From: Gemmatimonadota bacterium
Lineage (GTDB): Bacteria; Gemmatimonadota; Gemmatimonadetes; Gemmatimonadales; Gemmatimonadaceae
Reading direction: 5' to 3'
Assembly (NCBI GenBank): GCA_016191225.1
Contig: JACPPC010000001.1
Location: forward strand, 186,001-250,000
Length of the DNA stretch: 64,000 nucleotides
The translations under genes were made by a program, and so were the position numbers. Of the stretch, positions 49,780 to 55,133 are shown piece by piece. Under the pieces are notes generated by a model. That model saw only the letters and a list, made by a program, of their open reading frames with translations, ran no database searches and was not told the DNA's origin. How positions within the stretch are numbered: the first letter of the stretch is position 1; each line of letters begins with the position of its first letter.

Positions 49780-51462
49780 ATGCGATTGAGGCACGCCCGC
49801 GCCGTACTGCTGGCGTTCACGCTCTGCGGGGTGTGCCAGGCCGCGCGCCTGCCGGCGCAGGGGCCGCTCGTGATCACCAACGCGAGGGTCGTCACGCTGG
49901 ACTCCGCGCATCCCGACGCGGGCGCGATCGCCTTCGCCGGCGGGCGCATTGCGGCCCTCGGCGACAGCGCCCTCGCCCGGCGGGCGACCTCGCGCGTGAT
50001 CGACGCGCACGGGGCCACCGTCGTCCCGGCCTTCACCGACCACCACGCGCACCTGCTCAACATCGGACTCTGGCTGCTCAACGACGCCAGGCGCGAGCAG
50101 CTGTTCGTGGACGTGAGCACGGTGCGATCGCTCGACGAGCTCGCGCAACGCCTGCGCGACCGCGCGCGCCTCACGCCGGCGGGAGGCTGGGTCCTCGGCG
50201 CCGGGTGGAGCCAGGCCAGCTGGGGCACGCAGGCGCTGCCGGCGGCCGACGTGCTGACGAATGCGGTGCCCGATCATCCGGTGTTCCTCGCCCGCACCGA
50301 CGGCCATGCCGGCTGGGCGAACGCGGCCGCCCTCGGGCTCGCCGGCATTCGCGGCAGCACCGGCCTGCTGCTCGAGGGCGCGAACGACGCGCTCACGGCG
50401 CGCATTCCGTCACTCCCGGATCGCGACATCCGCCGCGCCTTTCGGCTCGCCGCGGAGGCGCTGGCGGCGCGCGGCGTGGTGGAGGTGTACGACGCCGGCG
50501 CCCTCGCCTTTCCCGGCGTGGTGGGGCTCAACGCGGACCACGCCCGCTTCGTACGCCTGCTGCGCACCGAGGACGCCGCTCGTCCCCTGCCCCTGCGCGT
50601 GAACCTGATGGTGCCGGCGCCGAGTGCCCTCGCCGACTCGCTGCTGCGCCATCCCGGCAACCGGCGGCTCTCGCCGCGAATCCGCATCACGCACCTCAAG
50701 CTGTTCGCGGACGGCGCGCTGGGGAGTCGCGGCGCGGCGCTCACGCACCCGTATGCGGACGACTCGACCACGCGCGGCGTGGCGCGGATGACGGCCGCGG
50801 AGATCGGTGCCCTCGCGCTGCGCGCCGTGGACGCGGGGCTGGGCGTGGCGACGCACGCGATCGGCGACGAGGCCGTGAAGCGCGCGCTCGACGCCTACGA
50901 CGCCGTGATCGCGGCGCGACCCGCGGTGGCGCACGGCCGCCTGCGCATCGAGCATTTCTCCTATGCCCGCGACGAGGACTTCGCCCGGGCGGCGCGGCTG
51001 GGCGTCGCCCTGTCGATCCAGTCCAACTTCAACTCCGCGGTCGAGGACGCGCCGCCGTTCGGCGCGATGCGCGTGGGCGCCGCCGCCGAGCCGCGGGTCT
51101 ACGCGTGGGACCGGCTCCATCGACTCGGCGCGCTGCTCGTGGAGGGCTCGGACTATTTCGCGCGGCCCCTCGAGCCGCTGGCGGGCTTCGCCGCGGCGCT
51201 CACGCGCAGGAATGCGATCGGCCCATCGCGCGCCGACGCCGACGCGCGGCTGCGGGCGCTCGCGATGCAGGCGGCACGCCTGACGCCCAATGGCGAGCGA
51301 CTCGACCCCGCGTTGCGCGTGGGGGCGCCGGCCGACGTCGTGCTGCTCAGCGACAATCCCCTCACCGCGCCGCGGGAGTCGCTCGCGGGGGTGACCGTTC
51401 GGATGACGTTGGCAGGCGGGCGCGACACGCATGCCGCGCCGCCGCGGGTGCGCGCGCCATGA
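49780..51462 (+). CDS. YtcJ-like secreted amidohydrolase
   Basis: TVVPAFTDHHAHLLNIG, LKLFADGALGSRGAALTHPY, ATHAIGDEAVKRALDAY, EGSDYFARPLEPL. Confidence 0.9.
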   Translation: MRLRHARAVLLAFTLCGVCQAARLPAQGPLVITNARVVTLDSAHPDAGAIAFAGGRIAALGDSALARRATSRVIDAHGATVVPAFTDHHAHLLNIGLWLLNDARREQLFVDVSTVRSLDELAQRLRDRARLTPAGGWVLGAGWSQASWGTQALPAADVLTNAVPDHPVFLARTDGHAGWANAAALGLAGIRGSTGLLLEGANDALTARIPSLPDRDIRRAFRLAAEALAARGVVEVYDAGALAFPGVVGLNADHARFVRLLRTEDAARPLPLRVNLMVPAPSALADSLLRHPGNRRLSPRIRITHLKLFADGALGSRGAALTHPYADDSTTRGVARMTAAEIGALALRAVDAGLGVATHAIGDEAVKRALDAYDAVIAARPAVAHGRLRIEHFSYARDEDFARAARLGVALSIQSNFNSAVEDAPPFGAMRVGAAAEPRVYAWDRLHRLGALLVEGSDYFARPLEPLAGFAAALTRRNAIGPSRADADARLRALAMQAARLTPNGERLDPALRVGAPADVVLLSDNPLTAPRESLAGVTVRMTLAGGRDTHAAPPRVRAP

Positions 51463-51872
51463 CCATCCCCGAGCCGACGCCGTACGACCTCCTGGGCGGC
51501 GAGGCCGGCGTGCGCGCGCTCGTGGACCGGTTTTACGACCTGATGGATTCGTCGCCGGAGGCGGCGCACGTGCGTGCCCTCCACGCCGCCTCGCTCAAGC
51601 AGTCGCGCGAGAAGCTGTACCTGTTCCTCAGCGGCTGGGTGGGCGGGCCGCCGCTGTACGTGGAGCGCTTCGGCCACCCACGGCTGCGAGCGCGGCACCT
51701 CCCGTTCGCGATCGGCACGCGGGAGCGCGACGAGTGGCTCTGGTGCATGGACCGCGCGCTCACGGCGCAGGCGATGCCGGACGACCTGCGCGAGTCGCTG
51801 CGCGCGGCGCTGCACGGCCTCGCCGACCACATGCGGAATGCGGGCGACCCGGCGGCGTCGTCCGGACCGTGA
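51459..51872 (+). CDS. Group II truncated hemoglobin
   Basis: YDLLGGEAGVRALVDRFYDLMDSSPEA, LYLFLSGWVGGPPLYVERFGHPRLRARHLPFAIG, EWLWCM; ATGA overlap with upstream amidohydrolase. Confidence 0.9.
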   Translation: MTIPEPTPYDLLGGEAGVRALVDRFYDLMDSSPEAAHVRALHAASLKQSREKLYLFLSGWVGGPPLYVERFGHPRLRARHLPFAIGTRERDEWLWCMDRALTAQAMPDDLRESLRAALHGLADHMRNAGDPAASSGP

Positions 51873-51901: not shown

Positions 51902-52165
51902 CTACTTGAGGTAGGCGCGGACGATCTCGGCGACTTCGTCCGAGTCGGGATTCGGCCCCTTGGCGGACAGCCCGTGCTCGCGGATGTGCTCGGCGAGCAC
52001 TTCGGCCATCAGCGCGCTCATGGCACCACGCGTGGCGGCGATGAGCCGCAGCACGTCGGCGCATTCCTCGTCGGCGGCGAGGGCCCGCTCGACCGCTTGC
52101 GCCTGCCCGACGACGCGACGGATTCGGGCGAGCAGCTTGGTCTTGTCTCGAATGGCGTGGCCCAA
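51902..52165 (-). CDS. Metal-sensing DUF156 transcriptional repressor (RcnR-like)
   Basis: MGHAIRDKTKLLARIRRVVGQAQAVERALAADEECADVLRLIAATRGAMSALMAEVLAEHIREH; H3, C35, H60, H64 by direct counting. Confidence 0.92.
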   Translation of the reverse strand: MGHAIRDKTKLLARIRRVVGQAQAVERALAADEECADVLRLIAATRGAMSALMAEVLAEHIREHGLSAKGPNPDSDEVAEIVRAYLK

Positions 52166-52227
52166 CGGCAGCTCGGCGAGGGAGGATCGTCAAGGTAGGC
52201 CGGGCCGGGCGGCCGAGCCAGCGCGCG

Positions 52228-52313
52228 GGTATACACTACCGGGTATGGCATATGCTGTACAGCGCAGCATCGAGCATACCCCCCTTGACGCAGGCCGCCG
52301 GTACCCGTATGGT
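52228..52313. promoter_or_regulatory. Candidate RcnR/CsoR-type operator region with promoter TTGACG-N17-TATGGT
   Basis: GGGTATG (52241-52247) inverted with CATACCC (52275-52281) preceding a C-tract; TTGACG 52285-52290 and TATGGT 52308-52313 toward the Nramp gene. Confidence 0.5.
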
Positions 52314-52522
52314 TGCTGGCTTCGCGACCCACCACGACCGCCGCCGGCCGCGGGAGGAGCGCCAGCGAGGTCGCGTTGCTCGCCGAGTGCTGCGACCGGG
52401 CGCATCTTGGAAACCATGTGGAGCTCGGGCCGGACGCGCAACTCATCGGGCACGCGGGCTGCAACCGCGACCGGGGACCGGTGGCGGCTCTGTCGATGCG
52501 ACTCAACGTCCTGACCTGACCC

Positions 52523-53866
52523 ATGTACTGGATCAGCAAGCTCATTCACCAGTTCTCGCGCCTGAAGCGGCGCTGGCTGGTCCTGTTCGCCGTGCTCGGG
52601 CCGGGCATCATCACGATGGTCGCGGACAACGATGCCGGCGGCATCTCGACGTACGCCCAGACCGGCGCGCGAACGGGCTTCAACATGCTGTGGGCGTTCC
52701 TGCTCCTCGTGCCGATGGCGTACTTCGTGCAGGAGATGACGGTCCGGCTGGGGGCCGTGACGAAGCGCGGGCACGCCGAGGCGATCTTCGACGGCTTCGG
52801 CCCCGTCTGGGGCTGGTTCTCGGTCTTCGACCTCGTGCTCATCAACTGGCTGACGCTGGTGACCGAGTACATCGGCATGACCCAGGCCCTGCGGCTGTTC
52901 AACATCCCGGAGTGGGTCACCTTCGGTGGCGTGACGGCACTGCTGATGGCCATCGTCATCACCGGCAAGTACTGGACGTTCGAGAAGATCACGCTCGTCT
53001 TCTGCCTGTTCAACATGGTGTACATCCCCGCCGCGTTCTGGGCGATGCACACGGGCAACGTGGCCGGCGGCTGGACGGCGGTGGGTCGCGGCTTCTACGC
53101 CCCGCACTTCACCCTCAACGATGCCCTGACGCCGGCCGCGCTGATGACCCTGGTGATGGCCAACATCGGGACCACGATCACGCCGTGGCAGATCTTCTTC
53201 CAGCAGTCGGCGGTGGTCGACAAGGGGATGGACATCAAGGACATCGCCTTCGGCAAGATCGACACCCTGTTCGGCGCCCTGCTCACCTGCATCGTCGCGG
53301 CCTTCATCATCATCGCCACCGCGGCGATGTTCCACCACAACCCGTCGGGGCCGATCGACATCGAGTCGGCGGCGCTGGCGGCGGCGCGGATGCCCGAGGT
53401 GCTCCCGGGCGAGCACCTCGGGGTCTACGCCAAGGGGCTGTTCGCCATCGGCCTGTTCGACGCCGGGCTGCTCGGCGCGCTCTGCATCTCGCTCTCGACC
53501 AGCTGGGCGCTGGGCGAGGTGTTCGGCTGGGCGCACTCGCTCAACCGGAGCGTGCGCGAGGCCCCCTGGTTCTATGTCGCCTACCTGCTGATGCTCCTCT
53601 CGGCGGGCGTCGTGTCGCTGGTGGCCGGCGCGCAACTGCAGGACGCGATCACGATCTTCGTGCAGGTCGTCGCGGTCACGCTGCTCCCCGCCGCCCTCGT
53701 CTTCCTGATCCTGCTGCTGAACGACAAGGCGCTGATGGGCGAGCACGTCAACACCAGGACGCAGAACGTGGCCAACTGGGCGATCACGATCCTCGTGATC
53801 GTCGTATCCTCCGCCTTCGGGATCTCGGTGCTCTTCCCTTCCTTCTTCGGCGCCGGCGCCAACTGA
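52523..53866 (+). CDS. Nramp-family metal ion transporter (non-canonical)
   Basis: GPGIITMVADNDAGGISTYAQTGARTGFNMLW and TM6 GTTITPWQIFFQQSA; about 11 TM helices; MPH and DPGN motifs not conserved. Confidence 0.88.
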   Translation: MYWISKLIHQFSRLKRRWLVLFAVLGPGIITMVADNDAGGISTYAQTGARTGFNMLWAFLLLVPMAYFVQEMTVRLGAVTKRGHAEAIFDGFGPVWGWFSVFDLVLINWLTLVTEYIGMTQALRLFNIPEWVTFGGVTALLMAIVITGKYWTFEKITLVFCLFNMVYIPAAFWAMHTGNVAGGWTAVGRGFYAPHFTLNDALTPAALMTLVMANIGTTITPWQIFFQQSAVVDKGMDIKDIAFGKIDTLFGALLTCIVAAFIIIATAAMFHHNPSGPIDIESAALAAARMPEVLPGEHLGVYAKGLFAIGLFDAGLLGALCISLSTSWALGEVFGWAHSLNRSVREAPWFYVAYLLMLLSAGVVSLVAGAQLQDAITIFVQVVAVTLLPAALVFLILLLNDKALMGEHVNTRTQNVANWAITILVIVVSSAFGISVLFPSFFGAGAN

Positions 53867-53870
53867 CCCC

Positions 53871-55133
53871 GTGACGAACCCGCCCCCGCCCGCCGCCGCG
53901 GCCCCGCCGCTCCCGGACTACCAGCTGCTCTTCTTCTCCGAGCTGCTGGAACACAAGGTCTGCCAGACGCGGGAGGAGTTCCGCATCGGCAAGCTGACCG
54001 ACCTCGTGGTGCGCCTCAGCGAGCCGTACCCGGAGGCCGTTGGCATCCTCATCAGCCACGGCTGGGGGAAGCCCACCGAGTTCATTCCGTGGGACCGCGT
54101 CGTCCGCATCGAGCGCGGCGCGATCTTCGTCCACCCGCCGGCGAGCGGCGAGCGGTACCCGCCGTTCGTCGACCAACCCGGCTGGATGCTGCTCAACGAG
54201 CACCTGATGGGGCGCACGATCCTCGACCTCGACGGGCGCCGCGTCGAGGTGGTCAACGACGTCCAGCTGCTGCAGAGTCGCGGGCGGATGCTGATCGCCC
54301 ACGTGGATGCCTCGTTCAACGGCTTCCTGCGCAAGTGGCACCTGGGCTGGATCGGCCTCCAGAAGGACCAGCTCATCTCGTGGCGCCACGTCCAGCCCCT
54401 CTCGATCGAGGACGCCACCGCCACCGACAAGGTCTCGCTCTCGGTCACCCGCCAGCAGATCCACGAGCTGCCCAGTGAAGACCTCGCCGATGCCCTCGAG
54501 GAATTGTCCGGGAAGGAACAGCAGGCGATGTTCTCGGCGCTGGCCACCGACAAGGCCGCCGAGACGCTGCTCGACGCCGAGCCGCGCGCGCAGCGGCAGA
54601 TCGTCGAGGACCTCGCGCCGGAGCGCGCCCGCGCGATCCTGTCGGAGATGACCGTCGCCCAGCTCGCCGACTTGCTCTCGGCGCTGCCGTGGGACGACCG
54701 AATCGACCTGCTGGCCCTCCTCCCGCGCGAGCTGGCGGAGCGGACGCGGTCCATCCTCGCCTCGGAGGAAACCCGGGCCGGCTCCCTGATCTCGCAGCGA
54801 TTCGTCGCGCTGGCGGAGGAGACGTCGGTCGGCGACGCCCTGGCGCACCTGCGCCGGTCGCCGCCCGACAAGGAGGCGATCAGCTACCTGTATGTCGTGC
54901 GCGGGGCCGAGCGCGTGCTGACCGGCGTGGTGGACCTGCGCGAGATGGTGCTTGCGCCGGAGTCGGCGACCCTGGCGGAGCTGATGGCGACACCGCCCGT
55001 GTCGGCCGACGAGCAGCTGCTCAAGGAGGATCTCGTCGACCTGTTCGCCAAGTACCAGTACCGGATGCTCCCGGTGGTCGATGCCGGCGACCGGCTCCTG
55101 GGCGTCGTCGGCTACAAGGACATCATGCGATGA
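53871..55133 (+). CDS. MgtE intracellular N-domain / CBS-domain protein with N-terminal PRC-barrel-like region, no TM domain
   Basis: LPSEDLADALEELSGKEQQAMFSAL (MgtE-N), CBS: VVRGAERVLTGVVDLREMVLA, YQYRMLPVVDAGDRLLGVVGYKDIM. Confidence 0.85.
   Translation: MTNPPPPAAAAPPLPDYQLLFFSELLEHKVCQTREEFRIGKLTDLVVRLSEPYPEAVGILISHGWGKPTEFIPWDRVVRIERGAIFVHPPASGERYPPFVDQPGWMLLNEHLMGRTILDLDGRRVEVVNDVQLLQSRGRMLIAHVDASFNGFLRKWHLGWIGLQKDQLISWRHVQPLSIEDATATDKVSLSVTRQQIHELPSEDLADALEELSGKEQQAMFSALATDKAAETLLDAEPRAQRQIVEDLAPERARAILSEMTVAQLADLLSALPWDDRIDLLALLPRELAERTRSILASEETRAGSLISQRFVALAEETSVGDALAHLRRSPPDKEAISYLYVVRGAERVLTGVVDLREMVLAPESATLAELMATPPVSADEQLLKEDLVDLFAKYQYRMLPVVDAGDRLLGVVGYKDIMR

Follow-up and report, generated by a model that had tools for sequence, protein, structure and literature searches.

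RcnR and DmeR, the characterised HCHH regulators of the CsoR/RcnR (DUF156) family, turn on metal exporters. In Escherichia coli, the Ni/Co-responsive RcnR is partnered with the exporter RcnA and uses an operator of the form TACT-G6-N-AGTA, and DmeR is paired with the CDF exporter DmeF. FrmR operators consist of ATAC/GTAT half-sites around a 9-bp GC-rich tract, and the formaldehyde bridge of this protein needs Pro2 and Cys35 (PMC5146963). On the transport side, the NRMT signature is DxxG in helix 1 and TxxA/T in helix 6 (PMC8806188). NrmT genes have been described with an MgtE-like partner gene; the NrmT gene of Clostridium acetobutylicum is controlled by an M-box, and the NrmT of Acidobacterium capsulatum, which has no riboswitch, was mainly a Mn2+ transporter when tested (PMC4072509). 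Here, we describe a locus in which an HCHH-type DUF156 repressor gene faces an NRMT-type importer gene. No paper on such a pairing of repressor and Mg/Mn importer was found in the open-access literature searched, and it appears to be a previously undescribed variation on known regulation, with a putative function.

The window (the whole 64-kb stretch of DNA that was analysed) contains the following features at this locus:

51459-51872: truncated-hemoglobin gene (PF01152), converging on the DUF156 repressor gene
51902-52165, minus strand: DUF156 (CsoR/RcnR family) repressor gene (PF02583), 87 aa, TTG start
52231-52246, no strand: site A, candidate operator ATAC-ACTACCGG-GTAT, identified as the sole such site in 64 kb and by its matrix score
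52233-52261, minus strand: putative repressor-gene promoter TGTACA-N17-TAGTGT, a weak consensus match (7/12)
52275-52284, no strand: site B, possible half-operator CATACCCCCC, abutting the transporter -35
52285-52313, plus strand: sigma-70-like promoter TTGACG-N17-TATGGT of the transporter operon
52346-52519, plus strand: OprB-family porin relic, the last ~55 codons, found by tblastn with relatives' porins
52523-53866, plus strand: NRMT-type Nramp-family transporter gene (PF01566), 447 aa, with DAGG in TM1 and TTIT in TM6
53871-55133, plus strand: gene for a PRC-barrel, MgtE_N and two CBS domains, 420 aa, the conserved transporter partner

The divergent DUF156-Nramp arrangement proposed in an initial annotation of this DNA was thus borne out by both domain matches (PF02583 at 51902-52165 on the minus strand; PF01566 at 52523-53866), with the repressor gene alone on its own strand.

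The repressor matched Pfam PF02583 (DUF156/Trns_repr_metal) at 67.3 bits, well above the cut-off of 22.8. Its likely start is the TTG at 52165, because a TGA is found in frame nine codons before it and neither ATG nor GTG occurs in between. The initial annotation had recognised in this protein the H3/C35/H60/H64 ligand set of E. coli RcnR; all four residues are present, and none of them varies among 18 homologues of the same bacterial family. The repressor also carries E34 and E63, so that the full set of Co(II) ligand residues of RcnR is kept (PMC7055735). An AlphaFold monomer model (pLDDT 87.6) consists of three helices (residues 8-30, 35-64, and 73-86), with C35 opening helix 2 and H60 and H64 closing it, and its best PDB match was FrmR (5lbm).

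The HCHH type therefore holds, but orthology to RcnR does not. The repressor scored 64.4 bits against the RcnR equivalog model (NCBIfam NF011613; cut-off 138), and in a tree of 54 sequences, built on few columns and with many forks unresolved, it fell inside a well-supported clade whose other members adjoin P1B heavy-metal ATPases, with RcnR and FrmR placed elsewhere. Together, the score and the separate clade rule out an RcnR orthologue. The curated FrmR model gave 77.7 bits, short of its cut-off of 133 yet above the repressor's own RcnR score. Within the tree, the window repressor paired with a protein from the relative G041 (77% identity); its nearest plasmid homologue (Jiella pelagia, 54%) lies in a dmeRF operon. 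The best-supported label, from these comparisons, is an HCHH-type metal sensor akin to RcnR and DmeR but orthologous to neither. The locus resembles rcnR-rcnA in its ligands, in its divergent arrangement and in the apo-repressor logic expected of it; however, the partner is an importer rather than an exporter, and the candidate operator is ATAC-N8-GTAT rather than TACT-G6-N-AGTA. The HCHH fingerprint is likewise shared with DmeR, but the window locus has no CDF exporter and its repressor gene does not share a strand with a partner gene. As a separate observation, P1B ATPases beside HCHH repressors (L134-L138, L177, and L178) carry GAC where the CPC/SPC transmembrane motif is expected.

The motif ATACN8-9GTAT occurs once in the 64 kb, at site A (0.02 copies expected), and closely resembles the operators published for FrmR. 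Members of the CsoR/RcnR family are expected to bind a GC tract between A/T inverted repeats, and a candidate site of this kind is present here and at related loci: ATAC-N8/9-GTAT sites were found upstream of the repressor gene in 28 of 50 related loci (33 sites versus 0.56 expected), although the 50 do not represent as many independent events, several from Acidobacteriota having a common gene order. A matrix derived from N8 sites at the other loci scored site A at 18.5 bits and the next best site in the window at 7.8. As a control, two M-box/MgtA loci without the repressor also had no operator. Direct alignment of the intergenic regions of the window and L133 failed to align the operators; the elements are common to both, but the flanks are not. 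Site A, which overlaps the putative -10 of the repressor gene itself, is 46 bases upstream of the transporter -35. In all 7 loci compared, the operator is centred between 62 and 82 bases upstream of the start predicted for the transporter promoter.

The initial annotation had drawn attention instead to GGGTATG...CATACCC inverted elements. These are present (52241-52247 and 52275-52281), but the 41-bp imperfect inverted repeat that they form (13/17 paired; P = 0.08) is not significant alone and was rejected as an operator, being no better than chance; the better-supported candidate, site A, had gone unnamed. Site B was rejected as a full operator at -1.1 bits under the same N8-site matrix, and the repeat with the C-tract may at best constitute a half-site. 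The C-tract itself (ATACCCCCC, 52276-52284) occurs nowhere else in the window (0.12 expected) and, as had been noted, stands next to TTGACG-N17-TATGGT (52285-52313), the sole promoter-like match in 52100-52600, where none was expected. The shared promoter region also contains the perfect palindromes GCTGTACAGC (52255-52264) and CATATG (52249-52255), which could be sites of another regulator.

The importer is an Nramp-family protein as annotated, but the MntH frame, in which MntR or Fur control would be usual, was wrong. Among solved structures, the Mg2+/Mn2+ transporter EleNRMT is its nearest relative (7qia; E = 6.6e-60), and MntH proteins matched at only ~1e-9. The NRMT signature is present as DAGG and TTIT. 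A PRC + MgtE_N + CBS gene lies directly after the transporter gene in 77 of 80 relatives from many phyla, the contigs of the remaining 3 ending too early to judge. Similarity, signature and partner gene together rule out an MntH-like identity and point to an NRMT-type (Mg2+/Mn2+) protein, for which both Mg2+ and Mn2+ are possible cargo. Transporter class and MgtE_N partner are thus those of the M-box-controlled NrmT of C. acetobutylicum (PMC4072509), but the window has a DUF156 repressor in place of the M-box. Among 18 other genomes carrying the NRMT-CBS pair, the DUF156 family was not found, bar one partial weak match; the DUF156-NRMT-CBS combination was seen only in the window genome, and close NRMT-CBS relatives are without DUF156.

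Between promoter and transporter lies a trace of an additional gene. A small open reading frame at 52313-52519 was rejected as a translated gene and is better read as the OprB-family porin relic, which matched relatives' porins at E = 6e-11 over the whole window (tblastn) and has its stop codon 3 bases ahead of the transporter ATG; the window genome contains no other porin match of this type. The M-box (RF00380) is absent from the window leader and from the whole window genome, and a search of Rfam at E up to 1 returned no riboswitch in the leader, the sole match being a chance snoRNA-like one. The locus of the relative G041 runs from repressor through operator, M-box riboswitch and intact OprB porin to NRMT, and the M-box is present in the nearest relative's locus, L133. 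Holophagaceae and others likewise have a porin gene followed by NRMT. We read the window locus as the probable descendant of a repressor/porin/NRMT operon minus the riboswitch and most of the porin, and the order in which riboswitch and porin were lost can be only conjectured. Short 3' relics of OprB-type porins just upstream of NRMT were observed at L151 (4242-4439) and L154 (4008-4145) as well as in the window (52346-52519), and relics in three lineages may point to repeated porin loss. In six Holophagaceae loci (L083, L086, L087, L089, L091, and L095), the porin, NRMT and PRC-MgtE_N-CBS genes are consecutive.

A survey of DUF156-Nramp pairs, suggested by the initial annotation as a check, showed that such pairs recur across repressor loci. 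The repressor lies beside NRMT or Nramp in the window and at L133, L134, L145, L161, L176, L180, L181, and L203; beside MgtE at L142, L143, and L161; and beside MgtA at L139, L148, L149, L170, L171, and L187. Gemmatimonadota repressors adjoin Nramp/NRMT, MgtE, MgtA and porins, and also heavy-metal pumps. At five repressor loci an M-box stands upstream of the Mg transporter gene set. The 179 genomes of the family contain five M-boxes, 3/5 of them next to the repressor, and two more repressor-adjacent M-boxes occur in a neighbouring family; a rough binomial test of this adjacency gave P of about 1e-10, with rounded genome sizes and assumed gene counts underlying the enrichment P values. An OprB porin is a common divergent neighbour of the repressor in Acidobacteriota, and no M-box was found at the repressor loci there, which restricts the riboswitch link to the Gemmatimonadota loci seen. 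One member of the survey, L176 on a Burkholderia contaminans plasmid, adjoins a mercury resistance cluster; it is a dmeRF operon near which an NRAMP-family gene runs divergently.

These data suggest a divergent metal-homeostasis locus in which a Co/Ni-responsive repressor relieves Mg2+/Mn2+ uptake, a model that, taken as a whole, we consider evenly balanced between right and wrong. The apo-DUF156 tetramer would bind ATAC-N8-GTAT at 52231-52246, and perhaps also a half-site on the -35, repressing its own gene and holding down the promoter of NRMT and its MgtE_N/CBS partner. If the analogy with RcnR and DmeR holds, the repressor should be released by Co2+ or Ni2+, and Ni/Co is a plausible effector: the ion would fill the N-amine/H3/E34/C35/E63/H64 site, the protein would leave the DNA, and import of Mg2+ (or Mn2+) would rise and outcompete the toxic ion. 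The corresponding transcript of the nearest relative also carries a Mg2+ riboswitch and a porin gene, both gone in the window except for the 3' end of the porin. Because of its sign, release by Co/Ni fits a protective rise in Mg2+/Mn2+ import and not feedback on the imported ion. We counted in favor of the model the ligands, the operator and its geometry in seven loci, the links to Mg/Mn importers, the M-boxes and the porin relic, and against it the operator upstream of the -35, the combination seen in one genome, the P1B-linked sister clade and the Mn2+-type NrmT.

Since site A covers the repressor's putative -10, autorepression is the safer part of this model. Control of the transporter is less certain because the operator lies upstream of its -35, not on it; it may need DNA wrapping, use site B on the -35, follow another mode, or be absent, and, given an operator at about -62 to -82, the repressor could even affect this promoter by some means beyond simple blocking. 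At the extreme, DUF156 might control only its own gene here (and an efflux pump elsewhere), with the transporter a passenger of rearrangement, expressed constitutively from TTGACG-N17-TATGGT. The placement of site A fits this reading, as do the close NRMT-CBS relatives without DUF156 and the loss in the window of the relative's porin and riboswitch. We nevertheless consider it unlikely, if worth keeping in view, given that the same geometry and the Mg/Mn-importer pairing recur in several separate repressor clades and that the operator is missing from M-box loci where the repressor is missing.

The effector might also differ. The link of the sister clade to P1B ATPases means that it could be another ion handled by such pumps, and the repressor could sense Mn2+, Zn2+, Fe2+ or another signal as an uptake regulator of NRMT's own ion. 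Relatives of the repressor show links to transporters of Mg, Mn and heavy metals and to porins alike, and FrmR E64H answers Zn and Co, so this type of site is not strictly specific to Co/Ni (PMC5146963). We regard own-ion regulation as quite improbable, however, because the characterised HCHH members respond to Ni/Co (PMC7055735), metal binding frees the DNA in the CsoR/RcnR family, opposite to what feedback on import of that metal would need, and a Cys-containing site is poorly suited to Mg2+. Sensing of formaldehyde is far more remote. FrmR gave the best family score and the nearest solved structure, and fold and half-sites with a GC-rich centre are shared with it; in contrast, Pro2, which the methylene bridge requires (PMC5146963), is replaced by Gly2 in the window repressor, at a position unconserved in homologues, residue 64 is His rather than Thr or Glu, and no formaldehyde dehydrogenase gene was recognised beside the repressor. 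The missing Pro2 led us to reject FrmR-type sensing.

Returning to the Co/Ni-responsive model, its extension beyond the window is more tentative, falling somewhat short of an even chance: RcnR-type repressors may have been recruited several times to Mg2+ import (NRMT, MgtE, and MgtA, with OprB porins), in series with or replacing a Mg2+ riboswitch, so that Co/Ni stress would raise Mg2+ uptake. If true, the recurring link to Mg2+/Mn2+ importers, some on an M-box transcript, would amount to two-signal control of magnesium uptake and would tie cobalt/nickel stress to magnesium supply. Recurrence of the repressor near magnesium uptake genes of related bacteria suggests that cells may increase magnesium import on the arrival of toxic metals. 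The locus offers a testable operator and raises a possible role of OprB-type porins in the uptake of divalent cations that can be tested as well. Finally, at three MgtA/M-box loci, a small membrane-anchored protein is possibly encoded between operator and repressor (L148, 1995-2400; L170, 3327-3780; L171, 2808-3265).
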